The position numbers and the translations under genes were made by a program. The notes beneath the pieces are model-generated. The model ran no database searches. It was not told the DNA's origin and saw only the letters and a list, made by a program, of their open reading frames with translations. Of a stretch of 64,000 nt of DNA, positions 1,297-12,408 are shown piece after piece. The stretch's first letter is position 1. Every line of letters begins with the position of its first letter. The stretch is from Curvibacter sp. GTDB lineage: Bacteria; Pseudomonadota; Gammaproteobacteria; Burkholderiales; Burkholderiaceae_C. The DNA is taken from assembly GCA_004293725.1 (NCBI GenBank), contig REAW01000018.1, forward strand, positions 1 through 64,000, in the 5' to 3' direction.

Positions 1297-3732
1297 TCAA
1301 ACGCGTTGGCGGGCTGCAACGGACGAAACAAGTTGATCCACAACGGCTTTTACTGCGGTTTCAATCTGGTCTTCAGTCAGAGTCGCTTCGTCATTGTTGA
1401 GTGTCAGGCGTACAGCTAGACTGCGATCGGTTGCCCCGTTCACTGCCATCGCGTCCTTTGCAACTTTAGGCCGATAAACATCAAACAATTGCGCATCACG
1501 AAGCAACCCGGATGTTGGCGCGGCCCAAACGGCTGCCATTAGCGCCGCATGGGTGACACTGTCGCCGACTACGACCGCAACATCGCGCTGAACGGCCTGG
1601 AATTTGGCCACCGACTTGAACTCGGGCACTGGGCGATCCAAAACTGCATCGAGCGCCAACTCAAATACCATGGGTGCGGAAGAAAGTTCGTACGATTGGC
1701 ACCACTTTGGGTGCAACTCGCCAACATATCCAATCACTTTCCCCGCGAGTATCACGTGAGCACACCGGCCAGGATGCATTGCGGGGTGAGTACCAGGCGC
1801 GAAGTCTGGCTTTAGTGGTGCTAGCAAGGCTTCTACATCGCCCTTGGCATCGAAGAAGTCCACGCCCTGCTCTTTGCGGCTCCACTGAAGCACGTCGGCA
1901 CTGCCGCCCACTAGGCCAGCGATACGCATCGGTTGGTTGAAGCCTTCCACTGTACTGTCGGTGCTCATGACCGTCGCATCACGGTGAAACACGCAGCCCA
2001 ATTCGAACACGCGTACGCGCGGCGCCTTGCGGGCCGCATTGAAGCGCAATACTTGCACCAGCGAACCAATCAGCGAAGAGCGCATCACGCTCAACTGGCT
2101 AGCAATCGGATTGAGCAGTTTGATAGGGTTGAGATTGCCCGCCAGTTCATGCTCCCATCGTTCTTCTACAAAGCTGAAGTTGATTGTTTCTTGGTACCCC
2201 ATAGCGGCCAAAGCGCGGCGCACGGAAAAAGGGCTGCGCTGTGACTCTGGGCGGATTTTTGCCGTGATTGGTGCGAGCGGCGGTGTATGCGGCAGGTTGT
2301 TGTAGCCAACCATGCGGGCCACTTCCTCAATCAAGTCTTCTTCAATCTGCAAATCAAACCGGTAAGACGGGGGCGTAACTGTAATGATTCCGTCGCTCTC
2401 CGTTATAGATAAGCCAAGACGCGTCAAGGCGTCGACGCACTGCGCTTGTGTCAACGGCATGCCAATGACCTTCACGGCACGAGCAACGCGCAATGTGACG
2501 GGAGTCGGAGTCGGCATGTTGGCTTTTTGGTCAACCACGGGGCCACATGTGGTAGCCGGGGTGCCACAGATATCTACGATGAGCTGTGTAATGCGTTCGA
2601 TGTGTTCAACCGTCAGTGCTGGGTCCACCCCCCGCTCAAATCGGTGACCCGCATCCGTGGAGAAGTTGAAACGGCGCGACCGCCCTGCAATCGATTTGGG
2701 CCACCAGAAAGCGGCTTCCACATAGATATGCTTCGTATCGTCTGACACAGCAGTGGCATCACCGCCCATGATGCCTGCCAATGACTCCACGTGGGCGTCG
2801 TCCGCAATCACTCCAACCTTGTCATCCACGGTGACGGTGTTGCCATTGAGCAGCTTCAGCTGTTCACCGGGCTTGCCCCACCGGACATCGAGCCCACCCT
2901 GTATCTTGTCCAAGTCAAAAACATGCGAGGGACGACCGAGCTCAAACATCACGTAGTTGGAAATGTCCACCAGCGGGGTGACGCTGCGTTGGCCGCAACG
3001 GGCCAGGCGGTCGACCATCCATTGCGGAGTCTGGGCTTTGGTATCGACATGTCGAATCACACGGCCTGAGAAGCGACCACACAGATCAGGCGCAGAAATC
3101 TTCACAGCCACCGTGTCGTCGTTGGTCACATCCACGGAGGGTATTGGTGCAGTGATTAGCGGCGCGCCGGTGAGGGCCGCCACCTCTCGTGCCACGCCAT
3201 ACACGCTCAGGCAATGCGCCAGATTGGGCGTCAGCTTCAGGGTGAACAGAGTGTCATCTAAATCCAAGTACTGGCGAATGTCTTGGCCCAAAGGCGCGTC
3301 CGAAGGCAGCTCCAGCAGGCCTCCATGGTCTTGTGACAATTTCAGCTCTCGGGCCGAGCACAGCATGCCTTGGCTTTCCACGCCACGCAGCATGCCAAGC
3401 TTGATCAAAAAAAGTTTGCCGTCTTCACCGGGCGGCAATTCAGCACCAACCAGGGCACAAGGAATGCGGATGCCCACGCGTGCGTTTGGAGCACCACACA
3501 CGATGTTGAGCAGCTCGGCTTGGCCGACATCCACCTTGCAGACACGCAGGCGGTCGGCATTCGGGTGCTGTTCCGCCACCTTGATCTCGCCTACAACGAC
3601 TTTGGTGAAGGGGGGGGCAACAGATTTGAGCTCCTCGACCTCCAGACCTGCCATCGTCAGTGTTTCCGCGAGTTCGGCGGTTGAGATTGAAGGGTTGCAG
3701 AAGGTGCGCAACCAAGATTCGGAAAATTGCAT
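1297..3732 (-). CDS. pheT: Phenylalanine-tRNA ligase, beta subunit
   Basis: This is the large subunit of the alpha2-beta2 phenylalanyl-tRNA synthetase, 811 residues as is normal for the family. It begins with the typical MQFSESWLRTF. An EMAP/OB-type tRNA-binding domain follows at about residues 40-150 (VVVGEIKVAEQHPNADRLRVC). The B3/B4 editing region and B5 domain come next, and a ferredoxin-fold anticodon-binding domain closes the protein (FQAVQRDVAVVV near residue 720). It lies 53 bases after pheS. The beta subunit holds the editing site that removes mischarged tyrosine. Confidence 0.98.
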   Translation of the reverse strand: MQFSESWLRTFCNPSISTAELAETLTMAGLEVEELKSVAPPFTKVVVGEIKVAEQHPNADRLRVCKVDVGQAELLNIVCGAPNARVGIRIPCALVGAELPPGEDGKLFLIKLGMLRGVESQGMLCSARELKLSQDHGGLLELPSDAPLGQDIRQYLDLDDTLFTLKLTPNLAHCLSVYGVAREVAALTGAPLITAPIPSVDVTNDDTVAVKISAPDLCGRFSGRVIRHVDTKAQTPQWMVDRLARCGQRSVTPLVDISNYVMFELGRPSHVFDLDKIQGGLDVRWGKPGEQLKLLNGNTVTVDDKVGVIADDAHVESLAGIMGGDATAVSDDTKHIYVEAAFWWPKSIAGRSRRFNFSTDAGHRFERGVDPALTVEHIERITQLIVDICGTPATTCGPVVDQKANMPTPTPVTLRVARAVKVIGMPLTQAQCVDALTRLGLSITESDGIITVTPPSYRFDLQIEEDLIEEVARMVGYNNLPHTPPLAPITAKIRPESQRSPFSVRRALAAMGYQETINFSFVEERWEHELAGNLNPIKLLNPIASQLSVMRSSLIGSLVQVLRFNAARKAPRVRVFELGCVFHRDATVMSTDSTVEGFNQPMRIAGLVGGSADVLQWSRKEQGVDFFDAKGDVEALLAPLKPDFAPGTHPAMHPGRCAHVILAGKVIGYVGELHPKWCQSYELSSAPMVFELALDAVLDRPVPEFKSVAKFQAVQRDVAVVVGDSVTHAALMAAVWAAPTSGLLRDAQLFDVYRPKVAKDAMAVNGATDRSLAVRLTLNNDEATLTEDQIETAVKAVVDQLVSSVAARQRV

Positions 3733-3785: not shown

Positions 3786-4856
3786 TTATTGGAACTGGGA
3801 CAAAAAGCGGATATCGCCATCAAAGAACAAGCGCAAGTCGTTCACGCCGTAGCGCAACATGGTGAGGCGGTCGGGTCCCATGCCAAAGGCAAAACCAATG
3901 TACTTTTCTGGATCAAGGCCCATGTTGCGGATCACATTGGGGTGTACCTGGCCGGAGCCAGCAACTTCGAGCCAGCGTCCAGACAGCGGGCCCGTCTGGA
4001 ACTGGATATCGATCTCAGCGCTAGGCTCTGTGAACGGGAAGAAACTGGGGCGGAAGCGCAGTACTAGGTCGTCCGACTCAAAGAAGGTGCGGCAGAAATC
4101 GGTGAAGACAAACTTCAGGTCCTTGAAGCTCACACTCTCGCCCACCCACAGGCCTTCGCACTGGTGAAACATGGGCGAGTGCGTCGCGTCGCTGTCCACA
4201 CGGTAGGTGCGGCCGGGTGCAATCACGCGAATTTCGGGCATGTCGCCGGAGAACAAACCGTCGGCGGAGGCGCCTGCAGCCGCACGGTGTTTTTTGACGT
4301 GCTGGACCGCATAGCGAATTTGCATGGGGCTGGTATGGGTACGTAACAAGTTGGGCGCAGTTTCGGAGCCGCCTTCTACATAGAAGGTGTCGTGCATAGA
4401 GCGCGCTGGGTGGTCTTCGGGCGTGTTGAGCGCGGTGAAATTAAACCAATCCGACTCGATCTCGGGACCTTGTGCCACTTCAAAACCCATCGAACCGAAG
4501 ATGGCTTCAATGCGCTCAAGTGTTAGTGATACTGGGTGCAAACCGCCCTGCCCTCGCTGACGGCCTGGCAGGGTTACATCCAGCGCTTCGGCCTGCAACT
4601 GCGTCTGCAGTTCGGCATCAGCCAGCGCTTGGCGGCGTTCAGTCAGGGCCGTTTCTATCGCCTGCTTGGCCACGTTGATCGCAGCACCGGTTGACTTTTT
4701 CTCTTCTACGCTGAGTGTGGCCATGCCCTTCATGAGCGTGGTCATGCGGCCGGACTTGCCCAAGAACAGGGCTTTGGCATTCTCCAGATCAGCGGGCGTC
4801 ACTGCTTGGGCAAAAGCCGCTTTGGCGGTGTCAACGATGGCGTTCAACTCGGTCAT
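3786..4856 (-). CDS. pheS: Phenylalanine-tRNA ligase, alpha subunit
   Basis: This is the catalytic subunit of phenylalanyl-tRNA synthetase, 356 residues, class II. An N-terminal coiled-coil region (about 1-90) binds tRNA. Motif 2 is visible around FHQCEGLWV and motif 3 near the end ([20 protein letters not shown]). The segment [11 protein letters not shown] is characteristic of PheS. It is cotranscribed with pheT downstream. Upstream, the rplT-pheS gap holds a strong hairpin with a T tail, so pheST expression may be partly uncoupled from the ribosomal protein genes. Confidence 0.98.
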
Positions 4857-4888: not shown

Positions 4889-4920
4889 AAGGGCTAGTGC
4901 TTTTTCAAGCGCTAGCCCTT
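4889..4920 (-). terminator. Intrinsic terminator or attenuator between rplT and pheS
   Basis: The arms 4889-4902 and 4907-4920 pair over about 14 positions around a four-base loop. On the minus strand the structure ends in CCC followed by TTTTTC, the classical U tail. It follows rplT and precedes pheS by about 30 bases, so it should reduce read-through into pheST. No phenylalanine-rich leader peptide is visible upstream, so a PheL-type control is not supported. The left end of a dispersed repeat overlaps the downstream arm. Confidence 0.7.
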
Positions 4921-4956
4921 GTTTCTGGTGCGCTAAACGCTACAAAATCAGTAGCA
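4911..4956 (+). repeat. Dispersed 46-nt repeat, copy in rplT-pheS gap
   Basis: This copy aligns without gaps to the ones at 51307 (31 of 46 identical) and 17839. It has the family's right-hand small hairpin GCTAC-AAAATCA-GTAGC. Its left end (GCTAGCCCTT) is one arm of the rplT-pheS terminator, so the repeat may have supplied that hairpin. Confidence 0.7.
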
Positions 4957-4969
4957 TTCAGCCGCGAAC

Positions 4970-5329
4970 TCAAGCAGCCAGTTTGGCTTTCACTTGTTCC
5001 ACGATGCCAGCAAAAGCAGCCATGTCATGGATTGCGATATCGGAAAGAACCTTACGGTCAATCTCGATATTTGCTTTCTTCAGACCATTGGCAAACTGGC
5101 TGTATGTCAGACCGCATTGACGGGCCGCAGCGTTGATTCGCGCGATCCACAATTGACGGAACACACGTTTCTTGGTACGACGGTCACGGTAGGCATATTG
5201 CCCAGCCTTCATTACTGCCTGTTTGGCAACACGGAAGACATTACCGCGGCGACCACGGAAACCTTTTGCAAGGGCCAGAACTTTTTTATGGCGGGCGCGA
5301 GCCGTTACACCACGTTTGACGCGAGGCAT
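4970..5329 (-). CDS. rplT: 50S ribosomal protein L20
   Basis: L20 binds 23S rRNA early in assembly of the large subunit. The 119-residue product starts [20 protein letters not shown] and contains the conserved [20 protein letters not shown] segment and the C-terminal [13 protein letters not shown] domain. Length and composition (very basic) are standard. It follows rpmI after 25 bases. In several bacteria L20 represses its own operon by binding leader RNA; the structured infC-rpmI gap upstream is a candidate site. Confidence 0.98.
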
Positions 5330-5354
5330 GTGATTACTCCTTGTTCGTCGTTAA

Positions 5355-5558
5355 TTAAATACCACGACCAGGCAGCATCTGCGCCATGTGACCCATATTG
5401 GTCTCATGAACTCCAGTAGTACCGCGCAAGTGGCGTTTATTTTTGGTGGTCTTCTTGGTCAGGATGTGACGTTTGAAGGCTTGACCGCGCTTGACGGTGC
5501 CACCTGGACGGACGCGGAAGCGTTTCTTCGCCGCGCTCTTGGTCTTCATTTTGGGCAT
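5355..5558 (-). CDS. rpmI: 50S ribosomal protein L35
   Basis: L35 is a small basic large-subunit protein of 67 residues. The sequence [20 protein letters not shown] and the later [18 protein letters not shown] are diagnostic. I chose the ATG at 5558, because the AAAGGAG Shine-Dalgarno lies about seven bases before it. An upstream in-frame ATG two codons earlier sits too close to that site. It is followed by rplT and preceded by a structured 165-base gap after infC. Confidence 0.97.
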
Positions 5559-5576
5559 GTTCATGCTCCTTTTCAT

Positions 5577-5723
5577 TTGTGCTCGTGAGGCGTACGGAAA
5601 ACTACTTCCGGCCTTGTTGGCCCCGAGCCACTTTTTAAGTGGAGCGTTTTATCGCCCCACTGGTTTGGCGAATCAGAAGATTCGCCGCTCACCCCGGCAG
5701 GTGACCAGACCTGCCGAGAGAAT
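5577..5723 (-). promoter_or_regulatory. Structured infC-rpmI leader, candidate L20 control region
   Basis: On the minus strand this gap holds several hairpins in series. One has arms 5695-5702/5709-5716 (CGGCAGGT pairing with ACCTGCCG) and a second has arms 5667-5674/5679-5686 (GGCGAATC with GATTCGCC). Smaller ones are CCACTT/AAGTGG and GGCC-AACAA-GGCC. E. coli controls rpmI-rplT by L20 binding to such leader RNA. Here the role is inferred from position and structure only. Confidence 0.45.
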
Positions 5724-6314
5724 TTAGGCCGCAGTTTCCGCTGCGGGCTTAGGTGCACCGCCACCAGGCTTCTTCCGGCCGGGCGCAATCATCATGATCA
5801 TTTGGCGACCCTCCAGCTTCGGGAATTGCTCCACGAGGATGGTGTCACCGAGTTCGTCGCGCATACGTTGCAACATCGCCAAACCAATTTCCTGATGGGT
5901 TATTTCGCGACCCCGAAAACGCAAAGTAATCTTGCACTTGTCGCCATCGGCCAAGAAACGCCGGATATTGCGCATCTTGATGTTGTAGTCGCCATCATCA
6001 GTACCAGGACGGAACTTGATTTCCTTGATCTCAATAACCGTCTGCTTGGCTTTCGCTTCCGCTGCCTTCTTCTGTTCCTGGTACTTGAACTTGCCGTAAT
6101 CCATCAACCGGCACACAGGCGGGTTGGCGGTTGCAGCAATTTCAACCAGATCCACATCCAGCTCACCTGCCATGCGCAGGGCTTCCATCAGGCTGACGAC
6201 ACCAAGGGGTTCGTTTTCTGGTCCAGAGAGGCGAACCTCTGGGGCCATTATTTCCCGGTTAAGGCGGTGTTTGCGTTCTTCACGCTGACGGCGGTCACGA
6301 AATTCAGTAGCGAT
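5724..6314 (-). CDS. infC: Translation initiation factor IF-3, AUC start
   Basis: IF-3 binds the 30S subunit, prevents premature 50S joining and rejects non-canonical start codons. The body is unmistakable: [20 protein letters not shown], then [14 protein letters not shown] and [12 protein letters not shown]. An ATG at 6248 would give 174 residues, but the conserved IF-3 N-terminus ([20 protein letters not shown]) is encoded in frame upstream of it. That segment begins at an ATC codon (6312-6314), with AAGGA seven bases before it and an in-frame stop just upstream. This gives 196 residues and a rare start codon, as expected for a gene that senses its own product. Confidence 0.93.
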
Positions 6315-6335
6315 GGCTCAATCCTTCACAATTTT

Positions 6336-6374
6336 TGCTACAAAAACAGTAGCTATTGCCGCACATAGCGCGCC
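6336..6374 (-). repeat. Dispersed repeat, copy in thrS-infC gap
   Basis: Read on the minus strand, this has the family's right half: GCGGCAATAGCTAC, TGTTTTTG and GTAGCA. The small hairpin GCTAC/GTAGC is intact and the left half is poorly preserved. It lies between the thrS stop (6403) and the infC start (6314). Confidence 0.55.
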
Positions 6375-6402
6375 GCCAAATCGGGTTTTCTTGGGTACAA
6401 CC

Positions 6403-8316
6403 TCAAGCCGCTGATTTGTTGGCAATGTCACTGGAAATCCTTTGAATAAAGGCCTCTAGGGGCATTGCACCAAGGTCTTGACCACCTCGGGCACGCACTG
6501 CGACGGCGCCTGCTGCCATCTCTTTGTCACCAATGACGATTAAATACGGCAGCTTTTGCATCGAATGCTCACGTATTTTATAGGTTATTTTCTCATTGCG
6601 CAGGTCTAAATTAACCCTAAGCCCTTGATTTTGCAGCGTTTTAGCCACGGAGCGACAGTAATCAGCCTGTGCATCGGTGATATTGAGCACCGCCACCTGC
6701 ACCGGCGCGAGCCATGCGGGGAGTGCTCCAGCACTTTCTTCGATCAGGATACCAATGAAGCGCTCCAAGCTTCCAACGATGGCACGGTGCAGCATGATCG
6801 GGCGGTGGCGCGCGCCATCTTCGCCGACAAACTCAGCATCCAGACGCTCTGGCAAATTAGGGTCCACTTGGATCGTTCCGCATTGCCAAGGCCGACCCAA
6901 GGCGTCTTTCAGCGTGTATTCGATTTTGGGGCCGTAGAACGCCCCCTCACCCGGAAGGTATTCAAAGTCGCAGCCCGATGCACGCAGGCCTTCAGCCAGT
7001 GCATGCTCAGCACGGTCCCAACTTTCTTCAGTACCGATACGTTTTTCGGGGCGGGTAGACAGTTTGTAAATGATGTTGGTAAAGCCGAAGTCTTTATAGA
7101 CCTTTTGAAGCAAGGTCGTGAAGGCAACCACCTCAGCTTGGATCTGGTCTTCGGTACAAAAGATGTGACCATCGTCCTGCGTAAAAGCGCGCACGCGCAT
7201 GATGCCGTGCAGACCACCCGAAGGCTCGTTGCGGTGGCAAGCGCCAAACTCGCCAAAACGCAAAGGCAAATCCCGGTAACTTTTGATTCCATGCTTATAG
7301 ATCAGGATGTGACCCGGGCAATTCATGGGTTTCAGCGCGTAGTCACGCTTTTCCGACTCGGTTACAAACATGTTCTCCCGGTATTTGTCCCAATGGCCCG
7401 TTTTCTCCCACAGGCTTTTGTCAATGATCTGCGGGCCTTTGACCTCCAGGTATCCGTTGTCTTGGTAAACCTTGCGCATGTACTGCTCTACCCCTTGCCA
7501 CAGGGTCCAACCCTTGGGGTGCCAAAACACGGTGCCAGGAGAGTGTTCGTCAATATGAAACAGGTCTAACTCGCGTCCCAGCTTGCGGTGGTCACGCTTT
7601 TCAGCCTCTTCCAGCATCGTCAAATGCTGCTGCAAATCGTCTTTAGTGGCCCAAGCGGTACCGTAGATACGCTGCAGCATCTCGTTTTTGTGGTCACCGC
7701 GCCAGTACGCGCCAGCCACCTTCATGAGTTTGAAGTGCTTGAGTTTGCCAGTCCTCGGCACGTGGGGGCCGCGGCACAGGTCTTCGAATTTTCCTTCGCG
7801 GTACAGCGAAACCTCTTGGTCAGCCGGGATGCTTTCAATGATTTCGGCTTTGTAGTGTTCACCCAAGCTTTTGAAGTAGGCCACGGCTTCATCACGTTGC
7901 AGAACGCGGCGCAACACCGGCTCATCCAGGGCGGCCAGCGTAGCCATCTTCTTCTCTATGGCTGCCAAGTCTTCCGGGGTGAAAGGACGTTTGTACGAAA
8001 AATCGTAGAAGAAACCATGCTCAATGACCGGGCCAATCGTGACTTGGGCCTCGGGGAACAACTCTTTGACTGCATATGCCAGCAAATGGGCCGTAGAGTG
8101 GCGGATGACTTCCAAGCCATCCGCATCTTTGGCCGTGATGATGGACAGCGCGCTGTTGGCCGCAATCTGGTAGCTGGTGTCCACCACTTTGCCGTCCACT
8201 TTGCCGGCCAGTGCGGCCTTGGCCAGACCTGCGCCGATAGAGGCTGCGACTTCGGCAACCGTTACGGGGCCGGGGAAATCACGTTGAGAACCGTCGGGGA
8301 GCGTAATTTGAATCAT
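6403..8316 (-). CDS. thrS: Threonine-tRNA ligase
   Basis: This class II synthetase charges tRNA-Thr. The 637 residues carry, in order, a TGS domain (about 1-60), the second editing domain, and the catalytic core. The editing domain has [16 protein letters not shown], with the HxxxH zinc-type motif. The core has motif 2 at [19 protein letters not shown], the zinc ligands MNCPGH and later histidines, and motif 3 near [21 protein letters not shown]-terminal anticodon-binding domain ends the protein. It is the first protein gene of the translation operon. Its 190-base leader has the features of a threonine attenuator, described separately. Confidence 0.98.
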
Positions 8317-8351
8317 GGTGGGTGCCTAAAAAGAGTCGATCAGAAAAGCAA

Positions 8352-8375
8352 AAAGCGCGGAGAGGTCCGCGCTTT
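8352..8375 (-). terminator. Attenuator terminator upstream of thrS
   Basis: The arms AAAGCGCGGA (8366-8375 on the minus strand) and TCCGCGCTTT (8352-8361) pair perfectly over ten positions around a four-base loop. On the minus strand the stem is followed by TTGCTTTTC. It lies about 35 bases before the thrS ATG, too close to be the end of an upstream gene's transcript, because phaB has its own terminator at 8536-8560. Confidence 0.85.
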
Positions 8376-8423
8376 ACTATGAATTTGGTAGCTGGCTGCG
8401 CACAAGGCGCGCGGACTACGGCC
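8376..8423 (-). repeat. Dispersed repeat, copy inside the thrS attenuator
   Basis: Read on the minus strand, it starts GGCCGTAG and ends GTGCGCAGCCAGCTACC, AAATTCATAGTA. This matches the family pattern GGCC..TAG ... GCGCAAGCAGCTACNAAAANNATAGCA. The left half carries the antiterminator strand (8409-8416). The match is partial, so this is a probable rather than certain member. Confidence 0.5.
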
Positions 8424-8468
8424 TTATTCGCTTCTTGTGAATGTCGCCGGTGTAGTTCGCGGTGTCAT
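8424..8468 (-). CDS. Threonine-rich leader peptide of thrS (predicted)
   Basis: A short frame, ATG to TAA, encodes MTPRTTPATFTRSE, with threonine at five of 14 positions (2, 5, 6, 9, 11). A GAAAGG stretch about ten bases before the ATG can serve as ribosome-binding site. It sits downstream of a predicted promoter and upstream of a terminator that precedes the threonyl-tRNA synthetase gene. The match between codon bias and the amino acid handled by the downstream gene is the main argument that it is a control peptide. It should have no function beyond being translated. Confidence 0.78.
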   Translation of the reverse strand: MTPRTTPATFTRSE

Positions 8469-8511
8469 AACCAGATTGCCTTTCTCGCTCTTATGCAAAG
8501 TTGAGTGCTGA

Positions 8512-8539
8512 ATTTTAACCCGAGTCGCTCCAATGAAAA
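8512..8539 (-). promoter_or_regulatory. Predicted sigma-70 promoter of the thrS operon
   Basis: On the minus strand the -10 candidate is TAAAAT (8512-8517, five of six to consensus). The -35 candidate is TTTTCA (8534-8539, four of six), with a 16-base spacer. Transcription would begin near 8505, about 37 bases before the leader peptide ATG. The -35 overlaps the T tail of the phaB terminator. Confidence 0.5.
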
Positions 8540-8560
8540 AGCCCGCATCAGCGGGCTCTT
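8536..8560 (-). terminator. Rho-independent terminator after phaB
   Basis: The stem AGCCCGC (8540-8546) pairs with GCGGGCT (8551-8557) around the loop ATCA. On the minus strand it is followed by TTTTTC. It lies about 30 bases after the phaB stop and ends the PHB operon before the thrS promoter. Confidence 0.85.
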
Positions 8561-8591
8561 TGTTCTAACCGAAAAAAACGGTGCGCAGACA

Positions 8592-9329
8592 TTAACCCAT
8601 ATGCAAACCGCCATTCACTGAAAAATCAGCGCCCGTTGCATATCCACCTTCTTCAGAGGCCAACCACGCAATGATGGAAGCGATTTCTGAAGGCTCGCCC
8701 AAACGCTTGACTGGCACGGTTGCAACAATTTTTGCCAGCACGTCTTCGCGAATGGCCTTGACCATATCGGTACCAATGTAGCCCGGGCTCACTGTGTTCA
8801 CCGTTACCCCTTTGGTGGCCAACTCCTGCGCCAGAGCCATGGAGAAACCATGCATACCCGCCTTGGCGGCAGAGTAGTTGGTCTGGCCAGCCTGCCCTTT
8901 TTCGCCATTGACCGACGAGATGTTGATAATCCGCCCCCAGCCCTTTTCCACCATGTCTGCCACGACTTGTTTGGTCACGTTGAACATGGAGTTCAGGTTG
9001 GTCTCGATCACCGAATCCCAATCTTCCCGGGTCATTTTCAGGAACATGCGGTCTTTGGTAATGCCAGCGTTATTGACCAAAACATCGATGGTCCCATGCT
9101 CTGCCTTTGTTTTTCCAAAGGCTTCAACGGTGGAATCCCAATCACCTACATTGCCTACCGAAGCGTAAAAGGTGTATCCCAACGCCTTTTGCTCCGCCAA
9201 CCATTTGGCATGGTCACGGGTAGGGCCGCAGCCCGCAATGACTTTAAAACCTTCTTTGTGCATTCGCTGGCAGATTGCGGTGCCGATTCCGCCCATGCCA
9301 CCGGTCACATACGCTACTTTTTGGCTCAT
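8592..9329 (-). CDS. phaB: Acetoacetyl-CoA reductase
   Basis: PhaB reduces acetoacetyl-CoA to (R)-3-hydroxybutyryl-CoA with NADPH, the second step of polyhydroxybutyrate synthesis. The 245-residue short-chain dehydrogenase has the cofactor motif TGGMGGIG at residues 9-16, NNAG (about 88), the catalytic Ser in NISSVNG and the YSAAK active-site Tyr-Lys pair. The ending GADFSVNGGLHMG is typical of PhaB. It is the last gene of phaC-phaA-phaB; 136 bases holding a repeat copy separate it from phaA. Confidence 0.97.
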   Translation of the reverse strand: MSQKVAYVTGGMGGIGTAICQRMHKEGFKVIAGCGPTRDHAKWLAEQKALGYTFYASVGNVGDWDSTVEAFGKTKAEHGTIDVLVNNAGITKDRMFLKMTREDWDSVIETNLNSMFNVTKQVVADMVEKGWGRIINISSVNGEKGQAGQTNYSAAKAGMHGFSMALAQELATKGVTVNTVSPGYIGTDMVKAIREDVLAKIVATVPVKRLGEPSEIASIIAWLASEEGGYATGADFSVNGGLHMG

Positions 9330-9355
9330 TGTGTTTCCTCTTCTTTCAGTTGTTA

Positions 9356-9402
9356 TGCTATCAATTTAGGAGCTTTCCGCGCATGATTTATTTGCGCCAT
9401 TG
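9356..9402 (-). repeat. Dispersed repeat, copy in phaA-phaB gap
   Basis: On the minus strand the right half reads GCGCGGAAAGCTCCTAAA then TTGATAGCA. This closely matches the copy at 55119 (GCGCAAGCAGCTCCTAAA, ACCATAGCA). The left half is diverged. Confidence 0.6.
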
Positions 9403-9465
9403 CCCTATTTCACTATGAGGACAGACCCGATGGGTTTGCAAAGGGGTCTGACCTGCAAGCGATTT

Positions 9466-10644
9466 TTAACGCTCCACTGCAAGGGCCACGCCCATACCGC
9501 CACCAATACACAGCGAAGCAACACCTTTCTTGGCACCACTACGCTGCATCTCGTGCAGCAAGGTCACCAGGATTCGGGCCCCGGATGCACCGATAGGGTG
9601 ACCGATAGCGATGGCGCCACCGTTCACGTTCACCTTGGCTGGGTCAATGCCCAGCAGTTTGTTGACTGCACAGGCCTGTGCGGCAAAGGCTTCGTTCAAT
9701 TCGAACAGATCCACGTCTTGCGCTTTCCAGCCCGCGCGGGCCAGGGCACGCTGTGTCGCCGACACCGGGCCCAAGCCCATGAGGGCGGGGTCCAGTCCGG
9801 TGGTACCAAAGCTGGCAATGCGCGCCAGTGGTGTCAGGCCAAGGGCCGCAGCTTTTTTGGCGGTCATCACTACGACGCCTGCGGCGCCGTCGTTGATGCC
9901 TGAAGCATTACCAGCGGTCACACTACCAGCTTTGTCGAACGCAGGCCGCAGACCTGCCAAGGCTTCGGCATTGGTTTTTTTGTTGATGAATTCGTCGGCG
10001 TCAAAAACGATGGCATCACCCTTGCGCTGCGGGATAGAGACCGGAACGATCTCTGATTTGAACTTCCCGGCCTCTTGCGCTGCTGCCGCCTTTTGCTGAC
10101 TTCCCAACGCCAAAGCGTCTTGTTGTTCGCGGGTAATTTCGTTGGCCTTGGCGACGTTCTCTGCGGTGATGCCCATGTGGTACTGGTTGTACACATCCCA
10201 CAAGCCATCAGTGATCATGGTATCGATCATCTTCCAGTCGCCCATGCGTTGGCCGTCACGGCTGCCCAACAACACGTGGGGAGATGCACTCATGTTCTCC
10301 TGGCCACCGGCAATCACGATCTCACTGTCACCCCAGGCCACCGCTTGAGCAGCCAACATCACGGCCTTCAGGCCCGATCCGCACACGGCATTGATCGTGA
10401 GCGCAGGCGTTTCTTTCGCCAAACCCGATTTGATGCCAGCTTGACGGGCGGGATTCTGGCCCACGCCTGCAGCCAGTACCTGGCCCAAAATGATTTCGCC
10501 CACCGCGTCAGCTGGCAAACCACTGCGCTCCAACAGGCTCTTGATAACGATGCTGCCCAGCTCAGTGGCCGGGGTTTTGGCAAGTGAGCCACCAAACTTT
10601 CCAACTGCAGTACGGGCTGCAGCAACGATAACGATGTCTTCCAT
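9466..10644 (-). CDS. phaA: Acetyl-CoA acetyltransferase (beta-ketothiolase)
   Basis: PhaA condenses two acetyl-CoA into acetoacetyl-CoA for PHB synthesis. The 392 residues start MEDIVIVAAARTAVGKFGGS. They contain the acyl-accepting cysteine C88 in NAVCGSGLKAV, the histidine motif GGAIAIGHPIGASG near 345, and the second catalytic cysteine in CIGGGMG near the C-terminus. The gene follows phaC by 30 bases. Length and motifs match biosynthetic thiolases, though degradative activity cannot be excluded from sequence. Confidence 0.96.
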   Translation of the reverse strand: MEDIVIVAAARTAVGKFGGSLAKTPATELGSIVIKSLLERSGLPADAVGEIILGQVLAAGVGQNPARQAGIKSGLAKETPALTINAVCGSGLKAVMLAAQAVAWGDSEIVIAGGQENMSASPHVLLGSRDGQRMGDWKMIDTMITDGLWDVYNQYHMGITAENVAKANEITREQQDALALGSQQKAAAAQEAGKFKSEIVPVSIPQRKGDAIVFDADEFINKKTNAEALAGLRPAFDKAGSVTAGNASGINDGAAGVVVMTAKKAAALGLTPLARIASFGTTGLDPALMGLGPVSATQRALARAGWKAQDVDLFELNEAFAAQACAVNKLLGIDPAKVNVNGGAIAIGHPIGASGARILVTLLHEMQRSGAKKGVASLCIGGGMGVALAVER

Positions 10645-10674
10645 CAGGTGTCTCCTTCTTAGTGAATCAAAAAT

Positions 10675-12408
10675 TTAAGCTCTCGCCTTGACATAACGCC
10701 CAGGGGCAGCCTCAAGGGCTTTGTACTTCCCTTTTCCATAAGTTTTGGGTGCTGCAATTTGCTTGCCAGCATGACCCTTGAGCCAATGGGACCAGTCCGT
10801 CCACCAACTTCCCGCATGTTCGGTGGCGCCCTCCAGCCACTGGGCATGGGTCTTGGGAAGTTTGCCATCGGCACGGATCCAGTGGCTGCGCTTGTTCTTC
10901 GCAGGTGGGTTAATCACCCCCGCAATGTGGCCCGACGCACCTTGAACAAATCGTTTTTTGCCCGGCAATAGTTGGGTGGAGGCATAGGCGCCACCAATGG
11001 GCACGATGTGGTCTTCGCGAGAACCGTAGATATAGACCGGAATATCGACTTGGCGCAGATCCAGTTTTTCTCCGCAGATCGTGAGCTTGCCGGGTTTGAC
11101 GAGGTTGTTTTCCAGGTAGGTGTTGCGCAGATACCAAGCGTAGTACGGGCCGGGCAGGTTGGTGCTGTCGCTGTTCCAGTACAACAGGTCAAACGGTGGA
11201 GGGGTTTCGCCTTTGAGGTAGTTGCCAACGACATAATTCCACACCAAGTCGTTGGGCCGCAAAAAGCTGAAGGTGCTGGCCAAGTCCTGCCCTTTCATCA
11301 GGCCGCCCTTGCCCAGCTCGCCTTCACGGTATTTGACGAAGCTCTCGTCAATGAACACATCCAGGATGCCAGTATCTGAAAAATCAAGGAAGGTGGTGAG
11401 AAAGGTGGCGCTGTCCACTGGCTTTTCGCCACGTGCTGCAAGCACCCCAAGCGCGGTACCCAACATCGTGCCGCCCACGCAAAAACCCAATGCATTGATA
11501 GTGGGTGAGCCGCTGATTTCTTGGGTGACGCCAATGGCTCGTATCACTGCGTGCTCGATGTATTCGTCCCACGTCTTGTTCGCCAAAGTGGCATCGGGGT
11601 TGCGCCAGCTCACCACAAAGGTTCGGTGGCCCTGCTCCACTGCATAGCGGACCAGCGAGTTCTCGGGCTGCAAGTCCAAGATGTAGAACTTGTTGATGCA
11701 CGGCGGCACCAGCAAAAACGGTTTCTCGTAGACCTTCGCGGTCAACGGCTTGTACTCAATCAACTGGAAGAGCTCATTCTCGAACACCACGGCACCCTCC
11801 GTGGTCGCCACGTTTTTGCCAACCTCGAACAGACTCTCATCCGTCATGGACACATGACCTTGTTGTATGTCATGAACCAGGTTTTTCAACCCCTTGGCAA
11901 TGCTTTCACCCTTGGTTTCAATGGCTTTCTTCTGGGCCTCCGCGTTAAAGGCCAAAAAATTGCTGGGCGCCGCAGCGGCCATCCATTGTTCTACCGCAAA
12001 GCGGATCCGGCTTTTGGTTTTGGTATCGGCATCCACGGCCTCAGCCAGTCCCATCAGCGTGCGGGCATTGAGCAAGTAGACCGCTGCAGCGTAAGCGGCC
12101 ACCGGGTTGTCACCCCACGCGGGGGCGGCAAAACGGCGATCCGTGCTGGCAGGCGCCTGAATGGGCTGGTTCAGCCCCTGGCTGAACAGCCCCATGGCCT
12201 CTTGCATGTACTGTTGCTGCAGAGCCTGCAGCTTTTCGGGCGCAAAGTGGATTTCAGGTGGCTTCTCGGTCATGGCGGGGAAGCCAGCACCTGCGGCTCC
12301 CAAATCCATGCCCTGAAAGGATTCCAGTGCCTTGGACCAGCTCTGGGTAAATGCCTGCTGAAACTGTTGGGTTGCCTGGGCCAAAAAGTCAGAACTGGGT
12401 TGGGTCAC
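10675..12408 (-). CDS. phaC: Class I poly(3-hydroxyalkanoate) synthase
   Basis: PhaC polymerises (R)-3-hydroxybutyryl-CoA into PHB granules. The 577-residue protein has the N-terminal PhaC domain, an alpha/beta-hydrolase core and the lipase-like box GFCVGG with the catalytic cysteine at residue 310. The expected Asp and His lie downstream (YIYGSREDHIVP and GASGHIAGVINPP). The start is GTG at 12408 with AAGGTG a few bases upstream. It leads the phaCAB operon; no phasin gene or regulator lies next to it in this window. Confidence 0.97.
   Translation of the reverse strand: MTQPSSDFLAQATQQFQQAFTQSWSKALESFQGMDLGAAGAGFPAMTEKPPEIHFAPEKLQALQQQYMQEAMGLFSQGLNQPIQAPASTDRRFAAPAWGDNPVAAYAAAVYLLNARTLMGLAEAVDADTKTKSRIRFAVEQWMAAAAPSNFLAFNAEAQKKAIETKGESIAKGLKNLVHDIQQGHVSMTDESLFEVGKNVATTEGAVVFENELFQLIEYKPLTAKVYEKPFLLVPPCINKFYILDLQPENSLVRYAVEQGHRTFVVSWRNPDATLANKTWDEYIEHAVIRAIGVTQEISGSPTINALGFCVGGTMLGTALGVLAARGEKPVDSATFLTTFLDFSDTGILDVFIDESFVKYREGELGKGGLMKGQDLASTFSFLRPNDLVWNYVVGNYLKGETPPPFDLLYWNSDSTNLPGPYYAWYLRNTYLENNLVKPGKLTICGEKLDLRQVDIPVYIYGSREDHIVPIGGAYASTQLLPGKKRFVQGASGHIAGVINPPAKNKRSHWIRADGKLPKTHAQWLEGATEHAGSWWTDWSHWLKGHAGKQIAAPKTYGKGKYKALEAAPGRYVKARA

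Follow-up and report, generated by a model that had tools for sequence, protein, structure and literature searches.

The stretch of Curvibacter sp. DNA analysed here (64,000 nt, hereafter the window) carries on its minus strand thrS, coding for threonine--tRNA ligase (6403..8316; NCBIfam TIGR00418, 736.6 bits), as the first gene of an operon. Behind the leader described below, the gene order is thrS, infC (IF-3; 5724..6314, TIGR00168), rpmI (L35; 5355..5558, TIGR00001), rplT (L20; 4970..5329, TIGR01032), pheS (3786..4856, TIGR00468) and pheT (1297..3732, TIGR00472), all on the minus strand, and the upstream neighbour of the leader region is an acetoacetyl-CoA-reductase-like gene. The infC start at window positions 6312-6314, read from the sequence, appears to be ATC (AAGGATTGAGCC ATC GCT ACT GAA), while starting at the first ATG would remove 22 residues; such a start is in line with E. 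coli infC, which is likewise initiated at a non-AUG codon. The terminator scan found no terminator between thrS and pheS on the minus strand. A long hairpin of 14 pairs in the rplT/pheS gap (4889-4920), behind which pheS lies, was reported for the plus strand, with a T-run following on the minus strand too, and this rplT-pheS hairpin recurs in three of the four relatives' gaps displayed. E. coli pheST has the pheM leader, whereas no Phe-rich leader was found before pheS in the window, and a frame with three Phe in seven residues occurred in only 3 of 67 such gaps. Additionally, small imperfect hairpins of the form GCTACTG-TTTTT-GTAGC, seen by eye in the thrS/infC gap (6337-6353), in the rplT/pheS gap (4939-4955) and between attenuator segments 2 and 3 (8376-8393), look like a short intergenic repeat.

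Ahead of thrS, on the minus strand, lies a leader ORF (8468-8424; ATG ACA CCG CGA ACT ACA CCG GCG ACA TTC ACA AGA AGC GAA TAA) encoding the peptide MTPRTTPATFTRSE, in which 5 of 14 codons specify Thr (ACA, ACT, ACA, ACA, ACA). It is preceded by the Shine-Dalgarno-like sequence GAGAAAGG (8479..8486), the GAAAGG columns of which are at least 90% identical among 68 aligned leaders, and, further upstream, by a putative sigma-70 promoter (TTTTCA / 16 nt / TAAAAT; 8512..8539) that would drive the leader transcript. The latter, with 9 of 12 matches, was the only promoter-like site found ahead of the leader, compared with 0.4 (sd 0.9) in shuffles, which makes the promoter plausible but weak when taken alone; TAAAAT-like hexamers were seen by eye at a similar position in many relatives. 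Segment 1, the protector arm, lies inside the Thr codons (8452..8461, CGCGAACTAC), and segment 2 (8409..8419), which starts 5 nt past the leader stop codon, has either segment 1 or segment 3 as its partner. Segment 3 (8365..8375) consists of the 5' arm of the terminator plus the first loop base and is the antiterminator partner, segment 4 (8352..8361) is the terminator 3' arm, and a U-rich tail follows at 8342..8351.

The terminator stem comprises ten perfect pairs (8375-8366 with 8361-8352) and ends 35 nt before the thrS ATG (8316). In the 1:2 pairing, 8461-8452 matches 8419-8410 (GTAGTCCGCG) at nine of ten positions with one A-C mismatch, and in the 2:3 pairing 8416-8409 (GTCCGCGC) matches 8372-8365 (GCGCGGAC) at eight of eight. 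The 159-nt leader folds with a z-score of -2.9, one of 200 shuffles being equally good, and the best predicted structure of the leader RNA contains exactly the 1:2 pairs and the 3:4 stem proposed in an earlier, sequence-only reading of the window. This reading had claimed a leader peptide with five Thr in 14 residues, a perfect 10-bp terminator with a U-rich tail about 35 nt before thrS, and two mutually exclusive pairings at 9 of 10 and 8 of 8; all of these are confirmed, and the coordinates given for the pairings are exact.

A screen for ATG frames of 8-24 aa with a terminator within 115 nt, run on the window and 80 thrS-region loci (1.31 Mb over both strands, a background of window and thrS-region DNA and not of a whole genome), returned 30 frames with at least four Thr in seven residues, 25 of which start with MTPR, the other five being longer in-frame starts of the same leader kind. 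Lowering the threshold to at least three Thr gave 40 MTPR frames and 17 others, and among the 12 others listed, four were not thrS leaders.

thrS was found in 149 out of 150 genomes of the family, from which 30 loci, including the window's own, were taken and combined with 80 named loci; the upstream region was readable in 109 of these 110, L095 being left out as its contig begins within thrS. The motif ATGACACCGCGAAC (three mismatches or fewer) was present ahead of thrS in 75 of the 109 loci, the window's own counted, or in 73 of 107 after merging duplicated genomes (L004/L053 and L014/L049 share identical upstream sequences under two ids). A terminator was reported after the leader in all 75 motif loci (L045 as a weak match). 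The MTPRT leaders, found in Acidovorax, Comamonas, Hydrogenophaga, Roseateles, Rubrivivax, Massilia, Janthinobacterium and Undibacterium, among others, contain between two (MTPRTQSSQGFIPLA) and nine Thr (MTPRTTTTTTSTSTEV), with only two in six of them (L026, L045, L059, L072, L074 and L101); L056, another of the 75, no longer has the ATG. Among the 34 loci in which the motif is absent are all five Limnohabitans-titled ones, the further loci being scattered, e.g., Malikia, Extensimonas, Serpentinimonas and one Rhodoferax. Related Thr leaders are present in two Ralstonia without the motif (L071, MIQAPRTTTASERQ; L073, MIRAPRTTTASERQ) and in the motif-less Pandoraea locus L108 (MFMIARTFTVVKVRR), while a third Ralstonia (L065), with the leader MIQAPRTTTASERQ, belongs to the 75. 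Relatives retain a Thr-rich frame, in 75 of 109 loci and additionally in other families.

Two side observations concern individual loci of this set. One record titled Chitinophaga pinensis (L070) carries thrS with a leader of the Comamonadaceae type and is probably a mislabelled bin. Furthermore, an inverted repeat around the promoter-like TAAAAT was detected (p <= 0.05) in 7 of 14 leaderless loci (L003, L033, L034, L035, L038, L039 and L076) compared with 2 of 51 leader-bearing controls. Its arms vary by species yet remain complementary, and its loop holds GCGTAAAAT in five of the seven, resembling the anticodon-like CGUAA; three other Limnohabitans-titled loci, L061, L063 and L067, stayed above p 0.05.

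The alignment of the 68 leaders shows no variation at the bases GGT.ATGAC.CCGCG.AC. An exact, single copy of the 17-base core GTTATGACACCGCGAAC (8455..8471 in the window, minus strand) is present in 34 genomes out of 300 sampled over the order, counting the window's own; these represent 8 of the 51 families sampled, and every one of the 34 matches sits just ahead of thrS. The order is read here as Burkholderiales in the wide GTDB sense, and the other orders considered below as gammaproteobacterial, judging by the relatives that carry names and by the rank at which genomes were sampled; f1 to f51 denote families of this sample by number only. Five matches with one mismatch were found in the order, of which one (G091) precedes thrS and the other four, with no thrS adjoining, were taken as chance, and the reversed pattern as control matched with at most one mismatch in 3 of 300 genomes. 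In a class sample of 229 genomes, three matches before thrS all came from the window's family; one further match, outside the order and with no adjoining thrS, was likewise attributed to chance. A sequence-only model (R1), built from the 68 leaders (45 of them forming set A2) after leaving out the aberrant L021, L041, L045, L056, L062, L065 and L097, recovered 46 of the 300 genomes at E <= 0.01, with a second weak match in G288. Weak R1 matches in L179-L181 had no thrS within the 1.8 kb examined and were counted as false.

Investigating the codon usage of the 73 MTPRT leaders, we observed Thr at codon 6 in 61 (ACG 22, ACA 21, ACC 13, ACT 5) and at codon 7 in 33, or in 59 and 31, respectively, of the 71 distinct leaders. 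As all four Thr codons are used at codon 6, the amino acid is preserved while the third base drifts. Codons 2-5, in turn, are nearly fixed at synonymous sites, beyond what counting Thr needs; pairing with segment 2 may explain part of this fixation. Outside codons 2 and 5, the Thr codons (ACC 58, ACG 43, ACA 32, ACT 18) show no strong use of rare codons, and we do not argue from codon rarity, given that ACA and ACT owe their excess mainly to codons 2 and 5, which are frozen. In many leaders the Arg codon CGA, which is rare (six genes of the window use it for 12 of their 152 Arg residues), stands directly before a Thr codon, and CGAAC is found in 15 of the 25 Thr-rich frames described next; CGA at this position may serve the pairing with segment 2 or cause a pause.

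To survey the order, 108 thrS upstream regions from 50 families (108 of 130 genomes) were searched for a short frame before the terminator rich in any amino acid, with 27 regions left out for being too short or for having no terminator. Among the 81 regions counted, 25 had at least three Thr in seven residues where 0.9 would be expected (none of 60 shuffle rounds gave more than 4), and at least four Thr were present in 14, where 0.13 would be expected. Amino acids other than Thr showed no comparable excess in these 81 regions, the next being Val (6 compared with 2.0), which we read as derived from tRNA genes. One of the 25 frames (L224) is a tRNA-derived false frame; the remaining 24 are distributed over 14 families. 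Ten more regions hold an Arg-Thr (CGA-ACN) frame with fewer Thr, and 46 of the 81 regions with a terminator have neither kind of frame. Leaders from other families, e.g., MFRTSTTTQS, MQLNRTTTTS, MAVRTTTTHP, MSFRTTTTGTLNLG and MFKRTTTTRISR, are of different sequence but keep the logic of a Thr leader.

The excess of Thr also bears on an alternative in which the hairpin would be a plain terminator or mRNA protector separating thrS from the unit ahead of it, the short frame being without a regulatory role. Several families indeed have only a tRNA-Val, a terminator and thrS, with no space for a leader, and many leaderless Comamonadaceae loci retain the terminator. A plain terminator would, however, account neither for 25 Thr-rich frames where 0.9 are expected, nor for the conserved Shine-Dalgarno-like sequence and start, nor for the exclusive 2:3 pairing next to the stop codon, and we regard this explanation as very improbable. 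A tRNA-Val(GAC) gene precedes thrS in many families of the order: of 21 loci picked by eye, ARAGORN found a tRNA in 17, in each with the anticodon GAC. Loci with an upstream tRNA-Val include L132, L127, L128, L135, L139, L259, L261, L292 and L108.

The pairings were tested in an alignment of 43 distinct leaders of the Comamonadaceae-like group, using shifts by 1-3 columns as control. Of the cells, 83.7% are paired in helix 1:2 (no shift gave more than 42.7%), 90.9% in 2:3 (no more than 61.0%) and 90.7% in 3:4 (no more than 62.4%), a comparison biased toward the structure because this was derived from the same sequences. Relatives keep both alternative pairings, 2:3 and 1:2, in the large majority of cells. 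Changes on both sides of a pair were seen in 7 cells for 1:2, 4 for 2:3 and 15 for 3:4. Compared with shuffled columns, the terminator 3:4 is clearly supported (covariation score reached by 0/500, further pair types by 3/500), while 2:3 showed no gain (both-side-change pairs reached by 168/500, further pair types by 267/500) and 1:2 gave 192/500 and 34/500 on those measures. Many core pairs never vary within this alignment, and 20 of the 43 sequences have an A-C mismatch in 1:2.

A comparison between families of different sequence is the better test of pairing. It comprised 35 hand-chosen leaders, of which L274 and L247 dropped out, and across the remaining 33 leaders of 20 families 2:3 reached a combined z of -6.5 (-4.6 when averaged by family) and 1:2 a combined z of -3.3 (only -2.4 when averaged by family). 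An f8 genome remakes the 2:3 helix with other letters (CGCTAGTCGAGGCC with AGCGCGGCTGGT), and an f5 genome forms it from GGCTAGTCGTACG and AGTGCGGCTAGT. In the 33 leaders, the best 2:3 site starts between -10 and +14 nt from the leader stop codon, the lower bound being set by the method, as the search started at -12. Duplex energies of single loci reached 5 or fewer of 100 shuffles in 14 of 75 loci for 1:2 and in 30 of 75 for 2:3, but GC-rich DNA makes this measure too noisy for a verdict on any one locus. Overall, pairing frequency and the cross-family z, rather than strict covariation, argue for a 2:3 antiterminator that would be exclusive with the terminator, with the protector helix 1:2 as the weakest element of the predicted architecture. 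What the sequences show is the anatomy of the leader and its recurrence in many families, a 2:3 pairing exclusive with the terminator, and selection that retains Thr as the amino acid.

Taken together, these features make it very likely that the region is a ribosome-mediated transcription attenuator that senses threonyl-tRNA and controls thrS and probably also infC-rpmI-rplT. By its sequence, it combines a leader ORF and putative ribosome site, an enrichment of the cognate codon and an intrinsic terminator before the first gene, with the leader stop codon placed such that a terminating ribosome would mask segment 2. With ample charged tRNA-Thr, the ribosome would reach the leader stop codon and mask segment 2, so that segments 3 and 4 would make the terminator and transcription would end before thrS. 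When charged tRNA-Thr is scarce, the ribosome would stall at the Thr codons and mask segment 1, segment 2 would pair with segment 3, and the polymerase would continue. Where the leader is not translated, 1:2 and 3:4 would both form and transcription would terminate. Transcription and translation of the leader are inferred, as are ribosome stalling within it and a rise of read-through upon Thr limitation. The Thr-rich frames and the exclusive pairings in relatives support the sequence-only reading, which had claimed this type of control for thrS. Counting against the attenuator are the modest pairing results at single loci, the strict covariation measures for 2:3 and 1:2, the A-C mismatch in 1:2, the leaders with two Thr or a lost ATG, the 34 motif-less loci, the 46 order-wide regions with neither kind of frame, the synonymous fixation of the core and the absence of a strong preference for rare Thr codons.

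Autogenous control by the enzyme itself is another explanation to be weighed. E. coli thrS is a textbook case of translational autocontrol, in which a ThrRS-binding hairpin lies near the ribosome site, and the conserved leader might accordingly be an RNA site bound by ThrRS, with the Thr codons incidental. The conservation of the 17-base core at synonymous positions would fit such a site, as would the binding of E. coli ThrRS to an anticodon-like mRNA hairpin. The two systems concern the same gene and would both be autoregulatory in effect, but the operator pattern is absent here: a strict, self-devised pattern for the anticodon-like motif (..CGTA..TCACCA, no more than 60 nt away from where thrS starts) matched 0 of 109 family and 0 of 108 order thrS upstream regions, compared with at least 13 of the 29 best-matching thrS upstream regions from 84 genomes of other orders. 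Those best 29 regions contained one Thr-rich frame, and 11 had a terminator. Moreover, Thr is retained with a free third base, and with unrelated flanks in other families, and a terminator match follows the leader in 75 of 75 motif loci, leaving a ThrRS-bound site as a highly unlikely explanation. As seen by eye, a tRNA of the tRNA-Val type precedes thrS in loci of both the order and the other orders, so that the neighbourhood looks old while the control differs.

Hardly credible, finally, is a dominant nascent-peptide or codon-pair pause at MTPRT (CGA then ACT or ACG) with tRNA-Thr charging as just one input, which the rarity of CGA and the recurrence of CGAAC in the Thr-rich frames would favour, since in the window group CGAAC belongs to a segment 1 that complements segment 2, which may itself explain CGAAC, and CGA is replaced by CTG or CCG in f3 and f23 leaders and by AAA in one f5 leader (the ten low-Thr CGAAC frames, having been selected for CGAAC, are not a test of this).

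The attenuator proposed for thrS can be placed beside several known systems. Leader-peptide attenuators control the amino acid operons thr, his, trp, leu and phe as well as E. coli pheST with pheM. The thrS leader shares with the classical cases a short ORF enriched for the cognate amino acid, exclusive hairpins and an intrinsic terminator before the first gene; unlike them, it would control threonyl-tRNA synthetase at the head of an operon with IF-3, L35 and L20, and it keeps a nucleotide-identical core over eight sampled families. In Gram-positive bacteria, the T-box leader of thrS senses the charging of tRNA-Thr and switches a terminator; sensing of tRNA-Thr charging and a terminator switch would be shared with the leader described here, in which the sensor would be the translating ribosome. 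The Rfam family Thr_leader is the leader of E. coli thrABC, which also uses Thr codons as the signal and differs in gene and sequence. An Rfam scan of window positions 5000-12000, at E up to 5, returned neither a Thr_leader nor a T-box match. A Trp_leader match at 8533-8619 (21.6 bits, with a cut-off of 41), which covers the hairpin behind the upstream gene, and a CC0196 match were rejected.

Attenuation of amino acid and aminoacyl-tRNA operons is reportedly the topic of work by Lopatovskaya, Seliverstov and Lyubetsky. In the literature searched, we recognised no account of a thrS leader attenuator in these bacteria, though Lopatovskaya, Seliverstov and Lyubetsky 2010 might list thrS; the term thrS occurs 0 times in the main text of PMC2965389, the supplement tables of which might list it. 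A Thr-containing leader peptide before thrS is annotated in another phylum: for thrL of Streptomyces lividans, PMC8079986 gives 18 aa with two Thr (MKRVRPFLETTPGFVPAR) on a leaderless transcript, with no clear terminator. This S. lividans annotation of a weak Thr leader at thrS has to be set beside the suggestion of the sequence-only reading that such control is little or not described. The best reading of the sequence data is that the thrS attenuator belongs to the known leader-peptide kind, its breadth across families being unusual.

A further-reaching scenario, which we consider speculative and rather unlikely, would be that GTTATGACACCGCGAAC and the rare CGA before the Thr cluster form a programmed pause that synchronises ribosome and polymerase, threonyl-tRNA charging thereby setting the output of IF-3, L35 and L20, and perhaps of PheRS. 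In this scenario, the sensor would have replaced, or been replaced by, the ThrRS-binding operator at the split of the beta- and gamma-type Proteobacteria, and would have been lost again in streamlined lineages such as Limnohabitans.

In conclusion, the thrS leader may represent a new RNA family, for which a search motif is already at hand. If the attenuator reading is true, initiation factor 3 and two ribosomal proteins would be under the control of threonyl-tRNA charging, a large sister group would govern the conserved operon that E. coli autocontrols at translation through a transcription switch responsive to tRNA charging instead, and this swap of regulatory principle at one operon would be directly testable in many cultured genera.
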